This document shows, one piece after another, positions 21,753-61,355 of a stretch of 64,000 nucleotides of DNA (its first letter is position 1; each line of letters opens with the position of its first letter). The DNA comes from a virus. Under the pieces are notes generated by a model. The model was given only the letters and a program-made list of their open reading frames with translations. It did no database searches and was not told where the DNA came from. Both the position numbers and the translations under genes were made by a program. Where the stretch lies: IMG/VR virus record IMGVR_UViG_3300027969_000072, positions 27,524 through 91,523 of that record. One strand, given 5' to 3'.

Positions 21753-22380
21753 TATTATAACTATCTAAAAATCTTTTTTCCTCTGGTGTAAGATTTTCAA
21801 TACCAACAGATGTAATTCTATCTAATATATCATCTATATTAAACTTTATCTCATTCTGTCTTTTTATCTTTTCAATATCTGACATTTCTTCTTTTGGAAA
21901 AGCACCAAACATACCCTTCTTCATATCTTCTACTTTTATTTTGAATTTACTCTCAAATTCATCACGAGAGAAGACCATCCCCATTACATTTACAACATCA
22001 TTTATCTCATGCTTATAGAAAACATCTAGACCCACAATGATTTCATCAACTAATAATTTATCTATTGAATCTGATGTATAGATACACTTATCTCCCTTAA
22101 ATATAGCAATATCACGTCTATCCATAAGATAAACAACATTTACCATACCTATATTATTTAGTTCGGTCATAATAGTAACAGTACCATTGATACGACTAAC
22201 AAAACTTGTTTTATTTGTATAAAGATTATCCAATACACTTTGAAAAATATCCGTAATTTCCTTTCGATACTTACCATCGTTATATCCCTCAATAATCTTT
22301 CTTAAAAGATTATTAAATAAATATCCTAAACAAAAGAACCCTATAATAATTGCGATAATTGAACCGTTACTGTATACCAT
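21745..22380 (-). CDS. Membrane-anchored unknown protein
   Basis: The 211-residue protein has one N-terminal membrane segment (about residues 8-25) and a soluble mixed alpha/beta region. Its C-terminal motif DILDRITSVGIENLTPEEKRF resembles the short ILDKIxxxGxxxLTxxEKxFL segment found at the end of Bacteroidota rhomboid proteins, and recurs in the small gene at 58646. No catalytic motif is seen. The start overlaps the end of the RlaP gene by 14 bases. Confidence 0.5.
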   Translation of the reverse strand: MVYSNGSIIAIIIGFFCLGYLFNNLLRKIIEGYNDGKYRKEITDIFQSVLDNLYTNKTSFVSRINGTVTIMTELNNIGMVNVVYLMDRRDIAIFKGDKCIYTSDSIDKLLVDEIIVGLDVFYKHEINDVVNVMGMVFSRDEFESKFKIKVEDMKKGMFGAFPKEEMSDIEKIKRQNEIKFNIDDILDRITSVGIENLTPEEKRFLDSYNNE

Positions 22381-23632
22381 AAACTGATTTTCTAATTTTT
22401 ACTAATAAACTATTTATAAAATTTTCATCTACCTTTTCTGGTAAATTTGATTCTTTAAACAAAGTATCCACTTCTTTAATCTCACTTTCAACATGATCAA
22501 TCAAAGTTTGTAAATCTATTTCACCTCTTCTAATTGAAAGAAGTTCTTGTGCATTATCTCTTTTAACAAGTATACCTTTACCTTCTGCAATCTCTCGTGC
22601 CATATCCATCAATCTACGACAGTGCATCATATTCTTACCATCAATTTGTTGACCGTGAGACTTAACATCTACCCATCTTTGAAGATTTCTTTTTGATAAC
22701 CATTCTTCATACTCTCTAAAGTCTTTACAGTGTTCAGAATATCCATCTTTATTATAAGTAATAGTACAAAATGGTTCTTGTCCCTTTGGAATTGATGATA
22801 ATCTCAATTGATTTGAGACACCTAAGTTCTTTTCTGCCTCTTTTTGAAAAACTAACTCAAGTCTATCAATTTGATCATCAGTCATATTAGTAAGTTTACT
22901 TCTATCAATAGTTGCACCTGCTTTAACCAATCCCTTATAACCTAGACCCAATGCAAGACCAGAGTCTTTACGTTGTTGAATCATAGTATCACTTAACTCT
23001 CTAGATTCTTTTCCAGAAAACATCATATCAGATTCAGTATCATAGAATAAGGTATATACGTCTTTTGCATATGGAACATTTACTGCACCAATAAATCTTT
23101 CATCATATTTCCCATCATTCCATTTTTTCCATGGAATAGCTTTTGTTCCTTGTATAACATAACAAAAATCAAGTAAGTCTTTACGAGTTACTTTATCTTT
23201 TTCCCAGTTTTGTTTTTTATTTTGACCTTTTGCTTTACCAATTTGAGCTCTCGCATAACCACCAAAAGAGTTGGCACAGATTTTAGTAATAAACTGATCT
23301 CTATTCTCTAATATTAAATCAAAAATAGGATCTTTATAGATAATACAGTCTTCTGGTGTATTAAGTAATTCTAAAACTGTTGGGTTATTACTAGCTAATA
23401 GTTCTAAAAATCTACGTAACTCATAGATTACAGTATCATTAGTATCATCATTTACTTGTTGCTTGTATTTACTACCAAGAATATCATCCAATGACTGGAT
23501 AAATACACCTGCGTAGTCAGTATCGGAAGTTTCTATATTAGTTCCGTATGCATGTGACCCCCTAACAACCAAGAAGATTGGTTTAGATCCAGGAGATCTT
23601 TCATTTATAAGTTGGCTTAGTTGTTCTTTCAT
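22367..23632 (-). CDS. RlaP-type nucleotidyltransferase (DNA polymerase beta superfamily)
   Basis: The 421-residue protein has the nucleotidyltransferase signature RGSHAYGT followed by TSDTDYAGVF (G25-S26, D37, D39), an ELRRFLELLASNNPTVLELL helix typical of the family, and an all-helical C-terminus. This layout is that of RlaP, the RNA-ligase-associated polymerase-beta-like family proposed to act in RNA repair. No RNA ligase gene is visible in the window. Two HAD repair-type phosphatases are. A TATATTTG promoter box lies 17 bases upstream. Confidence 0.75.
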   Translation of the reverse strand: MKEQLSQLINERSPGSKPIFLVVRGSHAYGTNIETSDTDYAGVFIQSLDDILGSKYKQQVNDDTNDTVIYELRRFLELLASNNPTVLELLNTPEDCIIYKDPIFDLILENRDQFITKICANSFGGYARAQIGKAKGQNKKQNWEKDKVTRKDLLDFCYVIQGTKAIPWKKWNDGKYDERFIGAVNVPYAKDVYTLFYDTESDMMFSGKESRELSDTMIQQRKDSGLALGLGYKGLVKAGATIDRSKLTNMTDDQIDRLELVFQKEAEKNLGVSNQLRLSSIPKGQEPFCTITYNKDGYSEHCKDFREYEEWLSKRNLQRWVDVKSHGQQIDGKNMMHCRRLMDMAREIAEGKGILVKRDNAQELLSIRRGEIDLQTLIDHVESEIKEVDTLFKESNLPEKVDENFINSLLVKIRKSVYGIQ

Positions 23633-27267: not shown

Positions 27268-27297
27268 AAAAGAGACTCATTTGAGTCTCTTTTTTTA
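27264..27297. terminator. Bidirectional hairpin terminator
   Basis: AAAGAGACTCA/TGAGTCTCTTT stem between the convergent nuclease and nusA genes. Confidence 0.88.
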
Positions 27298-28527
27298 GTT
27301 AAATTCGATTTCTAAAATTTTAATAACTTCTCTTATTGTTTCTTCTTCAAGATCTGTTTGTTTTACAATATAATTAAAGTCTGCTTTCAATACACTCTTA
27401 GCAGTGTCAAATCCAACTTTCCTAAACTCATCAATAATCCAACCATCAATTTCATCAGAGAAATCTTCTAATAAAACGTCCTCATTGTGTTCAACATCAG
27501 AAAATACATTTATTTTATATCCACTTATTTTACTTGCTAGTTTAATGTTCATACCACCTTTACCAATTGCCAATGAAATATTTTCAGAAGGTATAATCAC
27601 ATTAGCTGCTTTCTTCTCTTCATTTAACTCAACAGTTGCTTTACTTTGACCAAGTGCTCTCATAACAAATAATGATTTATTTGTAGTGTAACTGATAACA
27701 TCAATGTTTTCATTATTAAGTTCTCTTACAATACTATGTATTCTACTACCTTTAACCCCAACACAAGTTCCAACTGGATCAATTCTATCATCATAAGACT
27801 CAACAGCAACTTTTGCTTTAGAACCAGGTTCTCTAACAACTGCTTTAACTGTAATTAAACCATCAAATACTTCAGGTATTTCAAGTTCAAATAACTTTTC
27901 TAAGAATTTGTTAGAAGTTCTTGATAAAGTCATAAAAAGTTTACCATTATCAATAGAAACACTTTGTAAAATCGCTCTAATTGAGTCACCTTTTCTATAA
28001 AAGTCACCAGGTACTTGCTCAGTTTTAGGTAAAACAAACTCATTACCTTCATCATCAATAACAATAGCTTCTTTTCTTAAAATTTGATATACTTCACAAG
28101 TGAAAATTTCACCTTCTCTATCTTTATATTTTTTATACAAAGATTCCTTACCTAAATCAATGATTTTAGATTTAAGTATTTGACGAATTGATGAAATTGC
28201 ACGTCTTCCAAAATCAGCGATTTTAACTTCATCAGAGTAATCCTCACCTATCTCAAAACCAGATTCGATTTTATTTACATCAGTAAATTTAATGTGAATA
28301 TTCTCATCATAATCATCATCATTATCATCAATAACCATTCTATTTCTCCATATTTCTAAATCTCCCTTATTTGGATTTACAATAATATCAAAGTTATCAG
28401 TAGATCCATATTTTTTTAAGATTATAGTTTGAAAAACTTCTTGCATTATTTTAATCATTGACTCTTTATCAATGTTTTTAACATCTTTTAACTCGGTAAA
28501 AGACTCTACTAGATTTATATTATCCAT
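27295..28527 (-). CDS. nusA: Transcription factor NusA
   Basis: At 410 residues this is a complete NusA of Bacteroidota type: the N-terminal RNA polymerase-binding domain (FDIIVNPNKGDLEIWRNR near 45-62), an S1 domain (about 130-200), KH1 with VGVKGSRIHSIVRELNNE, KH2 with AIGKGGMNIKLASKISG, and a C-terminal helix-hairpin region (SDEIDGWIIDEFRKVGFD). NusA modulates pausing, termination and antitermination. The organisation and segments match cellular NusA closely, indicating capture from a host. No other Nus factor is seen. Confidence 0.93.
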   Translation of the reverse strand: MDNINLVESFTELKDVKNIDKESMIKIMQEVFQTIILKKYGSTDNFDIIVNPNKGDLEIWRNRMVIDDNDDDYDENIHIKFTDVNKIESGFEIGEDYSDEVKIADFGRRAISSIRQILKSKIIDLGKESLYKKYKDREGEIFTCEVYQILRKEAIVIDDEGNEFVLPKTEQVPGDFYRKGDSIRAILQSVSIDNGKLFMTLSRTSNKFLEKLFELEIPEVFDGLITVKAVVREPGSKAKVAVESYDDRIDPVGTCVGVKGSRIHSIVRELNNENIDVISYTTNKSLFVMRALGQSKATVELNEEKKAANVIIPSENISLAIGKGGMNIKLASKISGYKINVFSDVEHNEDVLLEDFSDEIDGWIIDEFRKVGFDTAKSVLKADFNYIVKQTDLEEETIREVIKILEIEFN

Positions 28528-31207: not shown

Positions 31208-31945
31208 ATGGATTTTGGAAAAGATTTTAGAAAGTATGCTTTAAGTGAAGGAATTTCTTCTTTAAACTTAGATTACTTTGAAAAAGGTTTAGTAGAGAAT
31301 AGTATGACACCATATATTCTTGAAGAGAGAGAAATGAGAGTAACGCAGATGGATATTTTTAGTAGACTCATGCGAGATCGTATATTATGGGTTGCCGGTG
31401 TTGTAAATACACAAATGTCAACCGTTGTTCAAGCTCAATTGATGTATTTAGACTCTGTTGAGAAAAAAGACATCAAAATGCATATTGACTCACCAGGTGG
31501 ATCAGTTTTAGCTGGATTAGGTATGGTTGATGTTATGAGATATATCAACTCTGATGTTGAAACAATCAATACTGGTATGGCAGCATCTATGGGTTCTATC
31601 TTATTATCATCTGGAACTAAAGGTAAAAGAGCATCATTAAACTTCTCTAAAGTAATGATACATCAAGTTTCTTCTGGTGCATCAGGACACGTTGAAGATA
31701 ATCGTATTTCTCAAATGGAATCAGAAAAATACAACTATATCTTATTCAAGATGCTTGCAGAGAATAGTGGTAGAGATTTTGATTATGTACTTGAAAGTGC
31801 TAGAAGAGATAATTGGTTAAACTCACAAGAAGCTTTAGACTTTGGATTTATTGATGAAATCATCATAACTGATAAATCAACTCCGATTACTACTTACTTG
31901 GATGGTTTTGAAGATTACTACACTAAGGAAGTTTTAAGAAAATAA
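31208..31945 (+). CDS. clpP: ClpP serine protease
   Basis: The 245-residue protein is a full ClpP: the N-terminal MTPYILEEREMRV segment that lines the pore and docks ATPases, SPGGSVLAGLGMVD, the nucleophile motif GMAASMG (S127), MIHQVSSG with H152, and RDNWLNSQEALDFGFID with D201. The complete triad predicts an active peptidase. Its N-terminal features (MDFGKDFRKYA) resemble Bacteroidota ClpP. It needs an ATPase; a ClpC-like one with a VGF loop is encoded at 61917. Confidence 0.93.
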   Translation: MDFGKDFRKYALSEGISSLNLDYFEKGLVENSMTPYILEEREMRVTQMDIFSRLMRDRILWVAGVVNTQMSTVVQAQLMYLDSVEKKDIKMHIDSPGGSVLAGLGMVDVMRYINSDVETINTGMAASMGSILLSSGTKGKRASLNFSKVMIHQVSSGASGHVEDNRISQMESEKYNYILFKMLAENSGRDFDYVLESARRDNWLNSQEALDFGFIDEIIITDKSTPITTYLDGFEDYYTKEVLRK

Positions 31946-37418: not shown

Positions 37419-37497
37419 GGCGATTTAACTCAGTCTGGTAAGTAGTAGCTCGCTCATAACGAGAAGGTCGGGGGTTCAAATCCCTCAATCGCCACCA
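37419..37497 (+). tRNA. tRNA with CAT anticodon (Met elongator or Ile2)
   Basis: A perfect 7-bp acceptor stem GGCGATT/AATCGCC is followed by an encoded ACCA end. The anticodon stem CTCG/CGAG holds a 7-base loop CTCATAA with anticodon CAT, and the T arm is GGGGG-TTCAAAT-CCCTC. The D stem is weak. A G1-C72 pair argues against an initiator. Without tools I cannot separate elongator Met from the lysidine-modified Ile2 type. Confidence 0.85.
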
Positions 37498-37908: not shown

Positions 37909-39087
37909 ATGAAAATAGATATAAATAAAATAAAGACAACACCATCAGATTTAGGGTTTAACTTCTGTGTATTCGGAAAACCTTCTGATGAAATTATAAA
38001 TTGGTGTAATTACTGGAACTTAAAAATGGAAGATTCTGGTAAATACACAAACATCATCTTAAATGATGATACAAAAATCAGTGATATATTCAATCAACCA
38101 AATAAATATGATTATATTGATGGGTTTAGTCCTAACTTAAATAAACATTTACACGTTGGTCACTTTTCTAACCTTGTTTTAGCAAATTCTTTTCAAAAAT
38201 TAGGTGTTGGAAATAAATTTATTGCCATTTTTGGTGATACTTTGGAAGGTGTAGTTCAAAAAGATGATGCTTTAAAATCATATTTTGAATATTGTGAGAA
38301 CTTTAACTATAAAGTAGATGAAGTATTCTTTGCTTCTGAAATGAAACTTCAAAATGAAGATCTTTTGATAGATGGAGAAGGTACATACGAAGGTTCAAAG
38401 ATTTTTGATTTAGTAGACGAAAAATTAGTTGGTATAAAAAGTTCTGGTTCAACATCTTACTTCTATCAAGATGTCGCCTTAGCTAGTAAATTAAATTCTT
38501 CTACGTTATATCTAACAGGAGTAGAACAAGATAATCACTTTAAATCTTTAAAGAAGTTATTTCCTACTACAAATCATGTTGGTCTTGGGTTAGTTCAATT
38601 AGATGGTAAGAAAATGTCTAGTAGTGAAGGTAATGTAATCTACATGACTGATTTTATAAATAGTTTACTACCATTATTCAATAATGATATGAAACTTGTT
38701 TATAATATAATAGCTGGCCAAATCTTAAAGTCTGTACCAACTTCAAGTAAATCAATAGATACAAAATTGATTGGTAATCCAAAACTATCTTTAGGTTTAT
38801 ATTTAAGTTATACTATGGCACATATTAAAAGCTGTGGAGTTACCGTACAAGATAAAGAAGATTTTTATTCTAAACAATTAGAATTTTCTGAGTTAAAAGC
38901 TAAAAGTAATTTATCACCGAATATATTATTCGATGCTTTAATAAATCACTGTAAGTATATAAATAAGTTATATGAGAAATTATACATAAAAGATAATGAA
39001 GTAAATAAAAAAATTTTTTCTGACTTATTGACAGACTTACAAATAGGTATGAAAAAAATTGGATTATTCCCAGTAGATAAAGTATAA
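37909..39087 (+). CDS. Arginyl-tRNA synthetase-like protein containing no arginine
   Basis: The 392-residue class I synthetase has the ArgRS-type start of the catalytic domain, FSPNLNKHLHVGHFSN (HIGH variant HVGH at 82-85), the STSYFYQDVALASK segment, TGVEQDNHFKSL, and LDGKKMSSSEGNV (KMSKS variant at 235-239). A short C-terminal helical part follows. It is much shorter than cellular ArgRS (about 550-590) and lacks the usual N-terminal domain. Remarkably, the protein contains not a single arginine. It should charge tRNA-Arg or act on a tRNA fragment; activity is not proven. Confidence 0.82.
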   Translation: MKIDINKIKTTPSDLGFNFCVFGKPSDEIINWCNYWNLKMEDSGKYTNIILNDDTKISDIFNQPNKYDYIDGFSPNLNKHLHVGHFSNLVLANSFQKLGVGNKFIAIFGDTLEGVVQKDDALKSYFEYCENFNYKVDEVFFASEMKLQNEDLLIDGEGTYEGSKIFDLVDEKLVGIKSSGSTSYFYQDVALASKLNSSTLYLTGVEQDNHFKSLKKLFPTTNHVGLGLVQLDGKKMSSSEGNVIYMTDFINSLLPLFNNDMKLVYNIIAGQILKSVPTSSKSIDTKLIGNPKLSLGLYLSYTMAHIKSCGVTVQDKEDFYSKQLEFSELKAKSNLSPNILFDALINHCKYINKLYEKLYIKDNEVNKKIFSDLLTDLQIGMKKIGLFPVDKV

Positions 39088-39897: not shown

Positions 39898-40731
39898 ATG
39901 AAAACAATATTTCTTGACATAGACGGCGTTCTAAACGTAGATTATGATGATAAAGACCAATTCGGTCATATCTTTAGGGAAGAGTATGTTCAAAATTTAA
40001 AAGAAATCATCGAGAAAACAGGTGCGAAAATCGTTATCTCTTCTACTTGGAAAGATAAAGGTATTGAAAGAATGTTAGACTTATGGAAAGAACGTCAACT
40101 ACCAGGTGAAATAATTGATGTAACACCAGATTGTGTAGATGTATGTGAATCAACTAATATAGTTTATTATGACCAAGTAAAAAGAGGTCATGAAATTAAA
40201 CTTTGGTTAGATAGACACCCAGAAGTAACTCAGTATGTTATATTTGATGATATACAAGATTTCCTAGATGAACAACAAGATTATTTTGTAAATTGTTCAA
40301 CGGGAGAACCAGTAAAACCCTGGAAATTAGGAATACCAGGACTAAAAGAAGAATGTAAAATTAAAGCAATAAATATATTAAACATGAAAGATAAAATAGA
40401 ATTTTCGGAATTTTTAGATGCTTCATCTAAATTAGAAATTAAAACAGGAAAGATTATATCAGTAACAGATGTACCTAAATCAGATAAACTTATTAAGTTA
40501 GAAGTTGATTTTGGCGAAGATACACCGAGAGTCGTTGTAACAAATATTAAACCTTCATTAGGTGAGAACTACGTTGATAAATTAGAAGGATACTCTTTCT
40601 TGTTCATAACAAATTTAAAACCTGTTAAAATGATGGGGATTGAGTCACACGCGATGATTATGCCAGGTGAATTAGAAAATGGTACACCAGCATTTGTTGT
40701 AAATACGAAACCAGGTACTAAAATACTATAA
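39898..40731 (+). CDS. HAD phosphatase fused to a tRNA-binding OB-fold domain
   Basis: The 277-residue protein is a fusion. Residues 1-160 are a HAD phosphatase of the Swiss-Army-Knife RNA repair type 2: FLDIDGVLN (D7, D9), VISSTWKDKG and YVIFDDIQDF. Residues 165-277 match the tRNA-binding OB fold of MetRS C-termini, EMAP-II and Trbp111: LEIKTGKIISV, a SDKLIKLEVDFG strand, ITNLKPVKMMGIESHAM. The product should bind tRNA and remove phosphate from it or from an attached group, possibly in repair of cleaved tRNA. Transcription is probably leaderless. Confidence 0.82.
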   Translation: MKTIFLDIDGVLNVDYDDKDQFGHIFREEYVQNLKEIIEKTGAKIVISSTWKDKGIERMLDLWKERQLPGEIIDVTPDCVDVCESTNIVYYDQVKRGHEIKLWLDRHPEVTQYVIFDDIQDFLDEQQDYFVNCSTGEPVKPWKLGIPGLKEECKIKAINILNMKDKIEFSEFLDASSKLEIKTGKIISVTDVPKSDKLIKLEVDFGEDTPRVVVTNIKPSLGENYVDKLEGYSFLFITNLKPVKMMGIESHAMIMPGELENGTPAFVVNTKPGTKIL

Positions 40732-52389: not shown

Positions 52390-53232
52390 ATGACAAACAC
52401 TTTAATGTACAATTCTCTAGTTCAGAAACTAAGAGAATTTTTTTTGGAAAAAAACTTCGTAGAAGTACCAACACAATCTAGACTATCAATTTTAGCAGCT
52501 TGTGAAAATCCACACTCAGTATCAACCTTTGAATACAATGGTGAGATATGGCCTTTACCACAAACAGGACAAATGTGGCTCGAGTATGAATTATTAAAAA
52601 ATCCTACTTGGGAAGGAGTTTTCTGTGTATCTACAAGCTACAGAGCAGAAAAAAATCCAATTCCTGGAAGACATGAACTAATCTTTCCAATGTTTGAGTT
52701 TGAATCAAAAGGCAAATATAAAGATTTAATTCTATTAGAAAAAGAACTTCTTGAGTATTTAGGATTTGGATCACCTGTTGAAATGGACTATAACAAAACT
52801 TGTAAAGAATATGGAGACGTATCAATTTTAGAAAATGAACATGAAACTAAAATGTGGAATGAAGTAAGCCATTGTGTCTCTCTTCAAAACTTCCCACTAA
52901 GAACTAATCCATTTTGGAACATGCAAAATCAAAAAGATGATATATTCAATAAAGTTGATATAATATTATATGGACAAGAAACAATAGGTGCGGCAGAAAG
53001 AAGTTGTGATATTGACTCTATGAGAAAAATGTTCTATACAATAGAAAATGGTGGATACTCTGAAAAATTATTCGAATTATTTGGAAAAGAAAGAGTAGAA
53101 AAAGAATTAGAAGATTTCTTAAAATTTGACTTCTTTCCAAGATTTGGTGCAGGAATTGGTTTAACAAGATTAGCAAGAGCTATGGAGTTACTTCAAAAGC
53201 AAAATCAAGAACAACTTGAATTACAAGACTAA
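52390..53232 (+). CDS. Class II aminoacyl-tRNA synthetase-like catalytic domain (Asx/Lys type)
   Basis: The 280-residue protein is a stand-alone class IIb core: motif 2 VSTSYRAEKNPIPGRHELIFP with following FEFE strand, and motif 3 GAGIGLTRLARAM. It lacks the N-terminal OB-fold anticodon-binding domain. It could charge tRNA, modify another molecule, or make asparagine as archaeal AsnRS-like paralogues do. Unlike the Arg and Leu-like proteins in this window it shows no codon or residue avoidance (11 arginines, 31 leucines using mainly TTA). Confidence 0.75.
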   Translation: MTNTLMYNSLVQKLREFFLEKNFVEVPTQSRLSILAACENPHSVSTFEYNGEIWPLPQTGQMWLEYELLKNPTWEGVFCVSTSYRAEKNPIPGRHELIFPMFEFESKGKYKDLILLEKELLEYLGFGSPVEMDYNKTCKEYGDVSILENEHETKMWNEVSHCVSLQNFPLRTNPFWNMQNQKDDIFNKVDIILYGQETIGAAERSCDIDSMRKMFYTIENGGYSEKLFELFGKERVEKELEDFLKFDFFPRFGAGIGLTRLARAMELLQKQNQEQLELQD

Positions 53233-56702: not shown

Positions 56703-57962
56703 ATGAAAGATAAAGATTATAAATATATTGCAACATTTTTCCCATACCCTTCTGGTAGTGGTTTGCACTGTGGACATTGGTATAACTATGCGATTATGGA
56801 TAGCTACTGTAGATACTTGAGATATAAAGGTGAAGAAGTTTTTCAACCATTTGGATATGATTCATTTGGATTGCCAGCAGAAAACTATGCAAAGAAAGTT
56901 GGTAGAGATCCAAGAGAAGTTACTTACGAGAATATAGAAAATTTTAGAATACAGATGGATAACATGGATACTCAATATGAGGAAATGTTGATTACTTCTG
57001 ATCCTAACTATATTGAGTACACACAATGGTTGTTTAAACAATTGTATGATAAAGGATTGGCTTATAAAAAAGATGGTGAAGTCGACTTCTGTAATAGTTG
57101 TGAAACTGTATTGGCCAGAGAACAAGTAAAAGAAGGTAAATGTGAAAGATGTTCTACAGAAGTAGAGAAGAAAACATTGAATCAATGGTATTTCAAAATT
57201 ACCGACTATAAAGATAGATTGATTGCTGGTTTGGATAAAATTGACTTTCCAGAATCTACGATAAAGTCACAAAGAAATTGGTTGGAAAATCAACATGACT
57301 GGTGTGTATCAAGACAAAGAAGTTGGGGTTGTCCTATTCCTATCGAAGGAGAAACAGATACAATGGACACATTTGTAGATAGTTCTATCTATACTATTAT
57401 CTATTGTATAATGAAGGGTATTAAACCAAAACCAGTTGATTTGTATGTTGGTGGATCAGAACATGCTTGCATGCACTTGATTTACATCAGATTTATTACA
57501 ATGTTTTTGTATGATATTGGATTTATTGACTTTGAAGAACCAATAACTAAATTGATACACCAAGGAATGATATTGAATCAAGGTGAAAAAATGTCTAAGT
57601 CTAAAGATAATGTAGTTAGTTTGGATGGATATGACCCAGATGAAATCAGATTTTACTTGATGTTTATTGGTCACTACTTTGATGGTGGATCTTGGTCTGA
57701 TGAAAATATAATCGGAATTAGAAGATTTATAAATAGAATGAAAACGTGGTTGGATAAAACAGGTGAAGAAACTATTGACATAGAAACATTCAAGAAAACT
57801 ATATTTGACTTTACAGATGCTTTTAAATTTAATAAAGTTGTAAGTTCATTTATGATTTTGTTGAATCAAAACAAAAATAAAGCGTTGACACCAGAGTGTA
57901 AAGAAGAATTGATACAATTGATTGAGATTTATATGCCTGGAATCCGAGCTAAATTAAACTAA
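56703..57962 (+). CDS. Minimal leucyl-tRNA synthetase-like protein without editing domain
   Basis: The 419-residue protein has the LeuRS catalytic core: FFPYPSGSGLHCGH (HIGH variant at 22-25), SFGLPAENYA, a zinc module (C130, C133, C147, C150), the WCVSRQRSWGCPIP segment, VGGSEHA, and EKMSKSKDN (KMSKS at 296-300). In cellular LeuRS the roughly 200-residue CP1 editing domain lies between QRNW and the SRQR segment; here only a few residues separate them. The anticodon-binding C-terminus is shortened too. Of 26 leucine codons, 25 are TTG and one (near the end) is TTA; neighbours use mostly TTA. It could charge tRNA-Leu or act on a fragment. Confidence 0.85.
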   Translation: MKDKDYKYIATFFPYPSGSGLHCGHWYNYAIMDSYCRYLRYKGEEVFQPFGYDSFGLPAENYAKKVGRDPREVTYENIENFRIQMDNMDTQYEEMLITSDPNYIEYTQWLFKQLYDKGLAYKKDGEVDFCNSCETVLAREQVKEGKCERCSTEVEKKTLNQWYFKITDYKDRLIAGLDKIDFPESTIKSQRNWLENQHDWCVSRQRSWGCPIPIEGETDTMDTFVDSSIYTIIYCIMKGIKPKPVDLYVGGSEHACMHLIYIRFITMFLYDIGFIDFEEPITKLIHQGMILNQGEKMSKSKDNVVSLDGYDPDEIRFYLMFIGHYFDGGSWSDENIIGIRRFINRMKTWLDKTGEETIDIETFKKTIFDFTDAFKFNKVVSSFMILLNQNKNKALTPECKEELIQLIEIYMPGIRAKLN

Positions 57963-58899: not shown

Positions 58900-59817
58900 A
58901 TGGAAAATAAAAAACTACAAATATTTATTGAAAAATCATCAATAAAACATAATAACTTCTACTCATACGAGTATTCTATTTATATAAATAATAATACAAA
59001 TATTATTATAACCTGTCCTATACATGGAAACTTTATACAAAGTCCTAAAAATCATTACCTAAAAGGATGTGGTTGTCCAAAATGTGGTAATGAAAAACGA
59101 AGTATTTCATCATCAAAGGGTTTAGAAAATTTTATAAATGAATCTAGTAAAATACATAAAAATAAGTACAAATACTTAAAATCTATGTATATAAATACAA
59201 ACACTAAAATTATCATAACTTGTCCGGAACATGGAGATTTTGAACAACTTCCACTACATCATATAAAGGGAATTGGTTGTTCAAAGTGTGCAAATAATTA
59301 TAATAAAACAAATATAGAGTTCATAGAAATATCAAACACTAAACATAATAATAAATATAATTATGATAAAACCAACTTCATAAATAATAATATTAAAGTT
59401 ATAATAACTTGTCCTGAACATGGTGACTTTAAACAATCACCATATCATCACATAAAAGGATTTGGATGCAAAAAATGTAGTGACTCAAAAGGTGAGTTAT
59501 TTATTGATAATTATCTTATCAATAATAATATAAACTTCATAAGAAATAAAACATTTGATGGTTGTATATATAAATCAAAACTAAAATTTGATTTCTATCT
59601 AAATGAATACAATATATGTATAGAATATGATGGTAGACAACACTATGAAGCGGTTGATTTTTTTGGAGGAAATGCTGCACTACTAATCTCAAAAAAGAGA
59701 GATAATATTAAAAATAAATATTGTAAAAGTAATAATATAAAACTATTCAGAATAAAATACTCTGATAATATTGAACAAAAATTAGAAAAAATTAAAAACT
59801 ATATAAAAATGACTTAG
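58900..59817 (+). CDS. Free-standing Vsr/EDxHD-type homing endonuclease with zinc repeats
   Basis: The 305-residue protein has three tandem repeats of about 60-70 residues, each ending in an ITCPxHGxF...GxGCxKC pattern (zinc-binding cysteines and histidine), as in DUF723-type DNA-binding modules. A C-terminal nuclease domain follows, with CIEYDGRQHYE and a final RIKYSDNI strand, as in Vsr-like EDxHD nucleases. It is unusually rich in Asn and AAT codons. It is probably a selfish mobile gene inserted between phage genes. Confidence 0.78.
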   Translation: MENKKLQIFIEKSSIKHNNFYSYEYSIYINNNTNIIITCPIHGNFIQSPKNHYLKGCGCPKCGNEKRSISSSKGLENFINESSKIHKNKYKYLKSMYINTNTKIIITCPEHGDFEQLPLHHIKGIGCSKCANNYNKTNIEFIEISNTKHNNKYNYDKTNFINNNIKVIITCPEHGDFKQSPYHHIKGFGCKKCSDSKGELFIDNYLINNNINFIRNKTFDGCIYKSKLKFDFYLNEYNICIEYDGRQHYEAVDFFGGNAALLISKKRDNIKNKYCKSNNIKLFRIKYSDNIEQKLEKIKNYIKMT

Positions 59818-59844: not shown

Positions 59845-60723
59845 ATGATAATTATAACAAGAACAGATCTTAGTTACGGTTATCAAAGTCAACAAAGTTG
59901 TCACTCAATTGCAGACTTTGCACACGAGTTTCCACAACAATTTAAAGAATGGAAAACTACATCTAATTCTATCATCTGTTTACAAGTAAACAATGAAAAA
60001 GAATTAAATGACTTATACTTAAAGTTATCCAAACTTACCTCAGTCACAAAATTTTACGAACCAGATTTAAACGATGAACTTACATCTATTTGTTTATACG
60101 CAGATAAAGATGTCAGAAAGAAAGTTTCATATCTTCCATTATTAGGTAAAAAATCAAAACTAACATACGAAAAAGTTATTTTTGATATGAATGATACACC
60201 ACAAACTGATACACAAAGTGTACTAGATCACGGTATCTCTGTCAATAAGTATTTTAATGATTTAACTAGTAGTAATACAGTATTTGAATGGAAGTTACCT
60301 ACTTGGTTTACCGAAAATAAAGATTATATCTTATCTAATATACATAGCAAAGATATTGTTAAAGAATATCAAATTATGCATGATTGTGGTAAACCTTATT
60401 GTATGACAATTGATGAAGACGGTAAAAGACACTTCCCAAATCACGCACAAGTATCATTTGATACATTCTCTAAGATTTCTGATAATAAGATAGTGGCTGA
60501 CTTAATTTTAAAAGATATGGTATTTCATACCATTAAATCAGATGAAGTAGAAGATTTTGTTAAAAATAATTCAATCGAAAATATTTTAACATTATTAGTG
60601 ACAGCTCTTTGTGAATTACACTCTAATGCAGCAATGTTTGGTGGTATTGAAAGTACATCATTTAAAATAAAATACAAACAATTAGATAAAAGAGGAAAGC
60701 AAGTACTAAATTTATTAAAATAA
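59845..60723 (+). CDS. Pth2-like peptidyl-tRNA hydrolase fused to an HD domain
   Basis: In the 292-residue protein, residues 1-100 resemble Pth2: IIITRTDLSYGYQSQQSCHSI (the conserved substrate-binding start), a VNNEKELNDLYLKLS helix and FYEPDLNDELTSICLY (the conserved aspartate before the final strand). From about 160 a metal-binding HD-like domain follows (QIMHDCGKPYC, then FPNHAQVS and later HTIKSDE). The fusion suggests hydrolysis of a tRNA-linked ester plus a phosphohydrolase step. Both halves are called from patterns. Confidence 0.65.
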   Translation: MIIITRTDLSYGYQSQQSCHSIADFAHEFPQQFKEWKTTSNSIICLQVNNEKELNDLYLKLSKLTSVTKFYEPDLNDELTSICLYADKDVRKKVSYLPLLGKKSKLTYEKVIFDMNDTPQTDTQSVLDHGISVNKYFNDLTSSNTVFEWKLPTWFTENKDYILSNIHSKDIVKEYQIMHDCGKPYCMTIDEDGKRHFPNHAQVSFDTFSKISDNKIVADLILKDMVFHTIKSDEVEDFVKNNSIENILTLLVTALCELHSNAAMFGGIESTSFKIKYKQLDKRGKQVLNLLK

Positions 60724-60764: not shown

Positions 60765-61355
60765 ATGGCGAACGCACCTATCACACCGAAAGAAAAATTA
60801 GCTTGGGAATTTGCCCAAAGAGCTCATAAAGATCAAGTAAGAAAATTTACAGGAGAATCCTACTTTGATGCACACGTACAAAAAGTAAACGGTACATTAA
60901 AGTTATATACTACCGATGAATCTACACTAATTGCAGCACTTCTTCACGATGTCGCAGAAGATTGTTATGATGATATTTGGGATGCTTATGCCGATGTAAA
61001 AGAACTTTTTGGTAAAGAAGTTGCAGACCTTATGTTAGAACTAACCTCTAATACAGACGAAATTAAACATAAATATAATGGTAGTAAAGTAGCTTACCTA
61101 ATCAATAAAATGTTGAAAATGTCTGACAAAGCGTTTACTATTAAACTATCTGACAGATTTAATAACATTGCTGACGCATTCACTGCATCCGAAAGATTCA
61201 GAACAAACTATTACAGAGAAACTTGTGCAATAGTTGATGCAATGGAAGAAGGTAGAACTTTTACAAAAGTTCAAAGACAATTACTTGATGATATTAAAGC
61301 AAAACTTGATAATATCAATAGATTATTTAAAGTAAAAAAATTAAACGAAATATAA
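60765..61355 (+). CDS. HD-domain (p)ppGpp hydrolase-like protein (SpoT/MESH1 type)
   Basis: The 196-residue protein has the motif order of small alarmone hydrolases: AQRAHKDQVRKFTGESYFDAH (first histidine and substrate loop), LIAALLHDVAEDC (H61, D62, E65, D66), a long helical part and TIKLSDRFNNIAD (D130). No synthetase domain is present. It should cleave (p)ppGpp and could dampen the host stringent response, but related HD enzymes with other nucleotide substrates exist. Confidence 0.82.
   Translation: MANAPITPKEKLAWEFAQRAHKDQVRKFTGESYFDAHVQKVNGTLKLYTTDESTLIAALLHDVAEDCYDDIWDAYADVKELFGKEVADLMLELTSNTDEIKHKYNGSKVAYLINKMLKMSDKAFTIKLSDRFNNIADAFTASERFRTNYYRETCAIVDAMEEGRTFTKVQRQLLDDIKAKLDNINRLFKVKKLNEI

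Follow-up and report, generated by a model that had tools for sequence, protein, structure and literature searches.

Confinement of leucine to single codons, and loss of the cognate amino acid, in aminoacyl-tRNA synthetases of huge phages

Why would a viral gene for leucyl-tRNA synthetase (LeuRS) write nearly all of its own leucines with a single codon that is rare in the genes around it? The question is raised by a stretch of 64,000 nucleotides, here called the window, taken from a virus record of 91.5 kb (IMGVR_UViG_3300027969_000072, positions 27524-91523) that is itself a fragment. The gene and its relevant elements are listed below.

56703..57962, plus strand: LeuRS gene, 419 aa, with exact open reading frame boundaries
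56766..56777, plus strand: class I signature HxGH, present as HCGH (residues 22-25); H22, G24 and H25 are invariant in a 23-sequence alignment
57588..57602, plus strand: KMSKS signature (residues 296-300); K296, M297 and K299 are invariant in a 23-sequence alignment
57954..57956, plus strand: the sole leucine codon other than TTG, a TTA at codon 418 of 419

An initial annotation of this DNA had reported 25 TTG codons among 26 leucines, a penultimate TTA and no CTN codon, and a recount returns exactly these figures. It had also stated that neighbouring genes favour TTA, CTA and CTT. This is borne out by the remaining genes of the window, in which leucine is encoded by TTA (59%), CTT (17%), CTA (14%) and only 9% TTG. 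The binomial probability of at least 25 TTG codons in 26 is 1.2e-25, and leucine in this gene is the top codon outlier among the 1058 gene-by-amino-acid tests made in the window. The class II gene used for comparison in the annotation, which is described below, has one TTG among 31 leucines on recount as well. The TTG codons are distributed over the whole of the LeuRS gene and are not gathered in a leader.

One explanation is that the pattern is an artefact of composition, resulting from foreign origin, a shift in GC content, an antisense overlap or a mis-called frame. The GC content at third positions is indeed higher in the LeuRS gene (0.26) than elsewhere (~0.17). However, every other amino acid is encoded by ordinary, local codons throughout the gene, as the initial annotation had argued when it set foreign origin aside. 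In addition, TTA and CTN triplets are present at normal levels out of frame, so that a regional sequence bias is absent. The antisense strand contains in-frame stops, and the use of CTT would create none. Local codons, out-of-frame triplets and antisense stops thus rule out foreign origin, regional base composition and antisense overlap. As dozens of relatives with different codons or with amino-acid loss also refute an artefact, we give this explanation next to no weight.

The identity of the protein was established from profiles and a predicted fold. Its best NCBIfam match is leuS_bact (E 6e-110), with 368.7 bits against a full-length cut-off of 548. The score lies under the cut-off because domains are absent: the profile aligns over positions 27-221 and again from ~412, skipping ~222-411, which is the CP1 editing domain, and the alignment ends before the C-terminus. 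The phage enzyme is without both the editing and the C-terminal domains and has 419 aa versus 860 in E. coli. An AlphaFold2 model (pLDDT 90.5) has as its best PDB match the LeuRS of Mycoplasma mobile (3ZIU, TMq 0.91), and AgnB2 LeuRS of Agrobacterium K84 (5AH5) is also among the best fold matches. M. mobile LeuRS has no CP1 editing domain, and AgnB2, an additional LeuRS, confers protection from a compound that poisons LeuRS. With M. mobile as an editing-free precedent, the missing domain lowers full-length equivalence and not identity as a LeuRS. Judged by sequence and model, the window gene is a catalytic-core LeuRS of the bacterial type that is presumably active. The likeness to the M. mobile and AgnB2 enzymes is one of fold, and to our knowledge neither has been reported to avoid leucine or particular codons.

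Homologues of this LeuRS are carried by phage contigs, which are often huge and reach 608 kb in IMG/VR and 735 kb in GenBank. TTG is the exclusive codon in most of the relatives that are confined to one box, accounting for 20/20 leucines in L012/L180, 20/20 in L202, 18/18 in L027 and 33/34 in L203. Other relatives are confined elsewhere. CTG is used for 19 of the 20 leucines in L019/L188, from phage G018, versus 5% genome-wide (log10 P -21); CTC/CTT for 20 of 22 in L197; and TTA/TTG for all 29 in L193 and all 22 in L207. At shared conserved leucine columns the window has TTG, L188 has CTG, L197 has CTC/CTT, L193 has TTA/TTG, L183 is mixed and L216 has isoleucine, methionine or phenylalanine. 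At these positions, one phage differs from the next in entire columns. The codon states require 12 changes on a tree of 46 rows, the minimum being 6 for 7 states, and the two CTG rows do not form one group. TTG as such is not the point, since relatives confine leucine to other codons.

The initial annotation held that its reading would suffer if many genes proved equally TTG-exclusive, or if homologues used ordinary leucine codons. No gene of the first kind was found in the TTG-type phage contigs scanned. LeuRS is the strongest leucine outlier in each of them, the exceptions being repeat-like or foreign-looking open reading frames in G008, G009 and G019. Homologues of the second kind do exist among several relatives, for example L183, L187, L201 and L204; most close homologues, however, are equally extreme, sometimes with a different exclusive codon.

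A sister group of LeuRSs dispenses with leucine. There are no leucines in L028 (LR756501.1; 508 aa), L215 (519 aa) or L216 (511 aa) and one in L217. The four proteins are 508-541 aa long, and ~41 leucines would be expected from the phage proteomes. They are a single clade with support of 100/100. L028, L215 and L216 exceed the leuS_bact cut-off of 548 with 558, 570 and 552 bits, respectively, and the model of L216 (pLDDT 88.3) has N. gonorrhoeae LeuRS as its best match (TMq 0.89). The 42 leucines of E. coli LeuRS that align to L028 are replaced mainly by isoleucine, methionine and phenylalanine. Clusters of tRNA-Leu genes adjoin the leucine-free LeuRS genes. Cellular LeuRSs (n=80) contain 5.7-9.5% leucine with a median of 7.7%, and none falls below 5.7%.

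The loss extends to other aminoacyl-tRNA synthetases (aaRSs). When the retrieved phage genes were scanned for composition, aaRS-like proteins emerged that each lack one common amino acid. Names came afterwards from family scans, in which the whole profile counts rather than any one residue type, and the absent residue proved to be the cognate of the named synthetase. The set of aaRSs was completed by Pfam searches that are blind to composition. The 508-kb phage G011 encodes 18 aaRSs or aaRS-like proteins. Above curated cut-offs are IleRS, with no isoleucine in 742 aa (~60 expected), AspRS (0 Asp/425 aa), AsnRS (1 Asn/392), TyrRS (0 Tyr/359), ThrRS (0 Thr/346), ProRS (0 Pro/368) and GlnRS (1 Gln/539), as well as SerRS and GluRS. 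Assigned by best match, below the cut-off, are ValRS (0 Val), LysRS (1 Lys) and TrpRS-like (0 Trp), HisRS-like (0 His), GlyRS-like (1 Gly) and ArgRS-like (1 Arg) proteins. An AlaRS-like protein has no alanine in 240 aa. The "PheS-related mystery ligase SrmL" of G011 (L090:15861-16958; NF051887, 434 bits) has no phenylalanine in 366 aa, and a second Phe-free SrmL-like protein is present in LR745206.1 (L319:8822-9898). By the cognate rule, and going by composition, the substrate of SrmL should be phenylalanine.

The three exceptions among the 18 proteins of G011 are LeuRS, which uses TTG only, SerRS, which uses AGY only, and GluRS, in which glutamate is halved. All 12 serines of SerRS are AGY, where 27% would be expected since 73% of serine codons are TCN, and this enzyme is the serine counterpart of the LeuRS codon pattern. 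Two GluRSs are also poor in glutamine, that of G011 (L070:13987-15510) with 2 versus ~16 expected and that of LR745206.1 (L027:5968-7443) with 5 versus ~15, as if two charged tRNAs were avoided. The scan also returned Lys- and Glu-poor outliers, and two depletion outliers of G011, one a membrane-like protein poor in arginine and the other a TTA-rich repeat protein poor in lysine, were set aside as they are unlike synthetases by sequence.

The depletion recurs in further phages and is specific to the cognate residue. In LR745206.1, IleRS, AspRS, AsnRS and the ValRS-like, MetRS-like, SrmL-like and ArgRS-like proteins all have zero cognate residues apart from the start methionine, as do IleRS, AsnRS and the ValRS-like protein of G014. 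In G011, 15 of the 18 enzymes have 0-1 cognate residues, compared to none of the 272 off-diagonal cells (C, W, H and M excluded). The cognate residues in this phage total 57, whereas 200,000 permutations of the labels give 379 on average and never fewer than 197. Across 63 labelled aaRSs, which are not independent, being from related phages chosen through their LeuRS, the cognate is the most depleted of the 20 amino acids in 52, with 516 residues seen versus 1735 expected. In G010 and G015, TyrRS and GlnRS were labelled from Pfam and similarity. Cognate depletion thus covers ~18 aaRS types in these phages; it is absent in 13 E. coli aaRS genes, where counts are near expectation, and in the cellular LeuRSs. 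The pressure is not universal, since some phage LeuRSs are ordinary and cognate residues are retained by the GluRS of W02 and the AspRSs of G026 and G035. An Ile-free IleRS of 841 aa (L428:1501-3687) on a 181-kb viral contig is 35% identical to the G011 enzyme, and several viral IleRSs at a similar distance are not Ile-free, which points to repeated evolution of isoleucine loss.

The window itself contains two further synthetase-like genes.

37909..39087, plus strand: ArgRS-like protein, 392 aa, with HVGH and KMSSS motifs and no arginine (13.4 expected)
52390..53232, plus strand: class II Asp/Asn-RS-like core, 280 aa (PF00152, 57.5 bits; weak asnS and aspS matches)

The absence of arginine from the first has a log10 P of -5.9, and its relatives have 0, 1 and 1 arginines in 392 aa. 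Its sole NCBIfam match is a weak one to argS (E 2.8e-8; 32.6 bits versus a cut-off of 261.7), and because this lies below the cut-off the protein is called only ArgRS-like. The second gene was considered as another self-avoiding synthetase and rejected, as its 11 aspartates and 17 asparagines show no depletion beyond noise; from its sequence it is unlikely to function as one of the synthetase set.

What would a synthetase gain by avoiding its own amino acid? An ordinary LeuRS cannot be made without Leu-tRNA, nor Leu-tRNA without LeuRS. With an ordinary leuS gene the loss of Leu-tRNA would be permanent, because the leuS message could not be read without it. This dead state would be absorbing, as no charged tRNA would mean no enzyme and no enzyme would mean no recovery. 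Removal of the cognate residue would remove the dead state, and fewer cognate codons would lower the threshold for recovery; a toy calculation shows the shape of this threshold effect and serves as illustration, not evidence. Leucine, a common residue, would either be cut to ~20 residues on one isoacceptor or be eliminated. As the window lineage places leucine on TTG, which is read by tRNA-Leu(CAA), only one charged isoacceptor would be required. The single-codon LeuRS is best read as a partial form of the same avoidance, since the cognates that are kept can be codon-restricted (TTG in LeuRS, AGY in the SerRS of G011).

On these sequence comparisons we think it likely that phage aaRSs have been selected not to need their own aminoacyl-tRNA, so that translation can restart after its loss. 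As for the trigger, we infer that the loss survived is the removal of host charged tRNAs during infection, after which the phage enzyme would charge phage tRNAs to restart translation. Removal could take place through cleavage by host anticodon nucleases or through replacement by the phage's own tRNA set. There is a limit to what this would achieve: one cognate-free enzyme would not by itself restart all 20 if every charged tRNA vanished at once, and the benefit would come with the loss of a single family or a small number of them. The initial annotation had proposed selection for translation under isoacceptor shortage. Its core has good support, as relatives use CTG, CTC/CTT or TTA/TTG or are leucine-free and other aaRSs drop their cognate, but its focus on TTG and leucine was too narrow. 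A broader reading, to which we lean only slightly, is that some huge phages carry a near-complete aminoacylation system, with aaRSs for up to 18 amino acids and 40-70 tRNAs, in which each enzyme has evolved to be independent of its own tRNA and which could take over on destruction of the host's charged tRNAs, perhaps an act of the phage.

Amino-acid starvation would produce a related pattern. If the free amino acid were short, as in infected or poor hosts, important genes would use the isoacceptor that is still charged or would avoid the amino acid. TTG makes up ~10% of leucine codons in several of these phages, usually with a dedicated tRNA(CAA), and a rare codon with its own tRNA is the isoacceptor that should keep the highest charged fraction. 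Moreover, a weaker cognate bias has been published for biosynthetic enzymes (PMC4209129). However, LeuRS is useless without free leucine and there would be little reason to make it, and most of the phage aaRSs do without the amino acid altogether, rather than without its sensitive codons only. Starvation therefore fits worse than tRNA loss, and we regard it as improbable.

The tRNA genes bear on two further explanations. The relatives carry up to 67 tRNAs by ARAGORN, and in several phages clusters of tRNA-Leu genes lie beside LeuRS, with tRNA-Leu(CAA) just upstream in L178, L198 and L202. In the window's 91.5-kb record, a fragment, ARAGORN finds no tRNA-Leu and only a single tRNA:

37419..37497, plus strand: tRNA-Met(CAT)

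An exclusive codon whose matching tRNA-Leu(CAA) often lies just upstream would suit a regulatory loop, also suggested in the initial annotation, in which a run of TTG lets LeuRS synthesis sense charged tRNA-Leu(CAA). Such a sensor needs cognate codons; the Leu-, Ile-, Val-, Asp- and Tyr-free enzymes have none with which to sense, and TTG is spread gene-wide without gathering in a leader. As the removal of cognate codons cuts a loop, this suggestion lacks support and is given very little credence.

Most of these phages have two kinds of tRNA with leucine anticodons, one with a long variable arm and one that is short (73-78 nt) and class I-like (G011, G010, G015, G018 and G020; L197, L203, L215 and L216). 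Possibly the short tRNAs form an orthogonal pair with the truncated phage LeuRS. Coexistence of the two kinds would also fit short tRNAs that carry another amino acid or misread, with LeuRS avoiding the ambiguous codons. Such a decoding conflict is weighed down by the finding that G011, G010 and G015 prefer TTG although their only CAA tRNA is short, by the free use of all leucine codons in other genes of the same phages, and by the Ile-free IleRS and Tyr-free TyrRS, which it leaves unexplained; we rate it marginally lower still than the regulatory loop. A rule that LeuRS codons are those of the long-armed, presumably host-chargeable tRNA-Leu fits G018, L197, G009, L202 and G019 and fails in G011, G010 and G020. 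A rule that CTG is used only where tRNA-Leu(CAG) is present was dropped, as L203 has the CAG tRNA and uses TTG. The nearest upstream tRNA-Leu reads the preferred LeuRS codon in 6 of 10 clusters, a post hoc count that is suggestive only.

Selection of aaRSs for independence from their own aminoacyl-tRNA has forerunners in logic. The cognate bias hypothesis was reportedly put forward for amino-acid biosynthetic enzymes by Alves and Savageau in 2005. Selective tRNA charging theory, said to be due to Elf, Ehrenberg and others, reportedly predicts graded isoacceptor preference in cellular genes. Under it, genes needed in a shortage of Leu-tRNA are predicted to use isoacceptors that stay charged, as here, whereas synthetases free of their amino acid are not predicted. 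In cellular biosynthetic enzymes cognate bias is a statistical tendency explained by starvation, with TrpA lacking tryptophan as a noted case (PMC4209129). A term search of that article found no phages or viruses and "synthetase" once, for tryptophan synthetase. The likeness is that a protein supplying an amino acid is poor in it and can be made when it is scarce. In contrast, the phage proteins are tRNA-charging enzymes, the depletion is total or almost total in 15 of the 18 enzymes of a single set, and it extends to codon choice. They match tRNA-ligase families on phage contigs, and not cellular biosynthetic enzymes. Because the defining setting of cognate bias, a biosynthetic enzyme of the cell, is not that of the phage proteins, we place the phenomenon outside the known kinds; the enzymes themselves are members of ordinary aaRS families, and cognate bias anticipates the logic.

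Huge-phage genomes have been described that encode as many as 15 synthetases and 67 tRNAs, the synthetases being suggested to charge phage tRNA variants (Al-Shayeb et al. 2020, PMC7162821). The phages considered here belong to the same group, and the 18 aaRSs or aaRS-like proteins of G011 exceed the maximum of 15 given in the parts of that article drawn on here, which make no mention of synthetase composition or codon use. Hosts are known to cut tRNAs, and jumbo phages, which usually have no conserved aaRS complement, answer with tRNAs and RNA repair (review, PMC7824862). The present case would likewise be an answer to attack on translation, and the window has genes of the RNA-repair type. However, anti-anticodon-nuclease systems replace or mend tRNAs, whereas here the charging enzyme itself would be freed from the attacked step. 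No earlier report of synthetases without their own amino acid was found in the open-licence literature searched; subscription journals lie mostly outside it, and an earlier report is possible.

If correct, selection against dependence on the cognate aminoacyl-tRNA would be a natural answer to the chicken-and-egg problem of translation, with the maker of Leu-tRNA needing none itself. On this view, loss of particular charged tRNAs would be frequent in infected cells, the amino acids under attack could be read directly from the synthetases, and the abundance of tRNAs and synthetases in huge phages might be accounted for. Missing amino acids would also predict substrates, as for SrmL, which lacks phenylalanine in two phages. 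Finally, Leu-free LeuRS and Ile-free IleRS, as large enzymes that nature has stripped of one amino acid, would be useful for reduced-alphabet protein design and for self-starting cell-free translation.

Other genes of the window encode proteins linked to RNA repair, tRNA and related functions.

22367..23632, minus strand: RlaP-family nucleotidyltransferase, RNA repair (PF10127, E 9.5e-20)
27295-28527: phage NusA homologue
31208-31945: ClpP protease homologue
39898..40731, plus strand: HAD domain of the "Swiss Army Knife" RNA-repair type (HAD-SAK; PF18143, E 4e-26) fused to a tRNA-binding domain (PF01588, E 1.5e-16)
59845..60723, plus strand: protein with an N-terminal peptidyl-tRNA hydrolase 2 domain (PF01981, E 9.6e-6)
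60765..61355, plus strand: HD_4 protein of the SpoT/MESH1-like (p)ppGpp hydrolase type, with the function predicted from the family (PF13328, E 1.2e-15)

Homologues of RlaP are present in G005, G002, G011, G020 and G010. The RNA-repair and tRNA-binding neighbours fit tRNA loss as the pressure and do not prove it. Between the LeuRS and peptidyl-tRNA hydrolase genes, a 305-aa protein (58900-59817) has scattered weak matches to DUF723, treble-clef and Colicin_D and has homologues in many of these huge phages; by sequence it is probably a mobile gene of the endonuclease type. In addition, tRNAs with a CTA anticodon, labelled Pyl by ARAGORN, are found in G011, G010, G020 and G019 and are possible suppressors of TAG.
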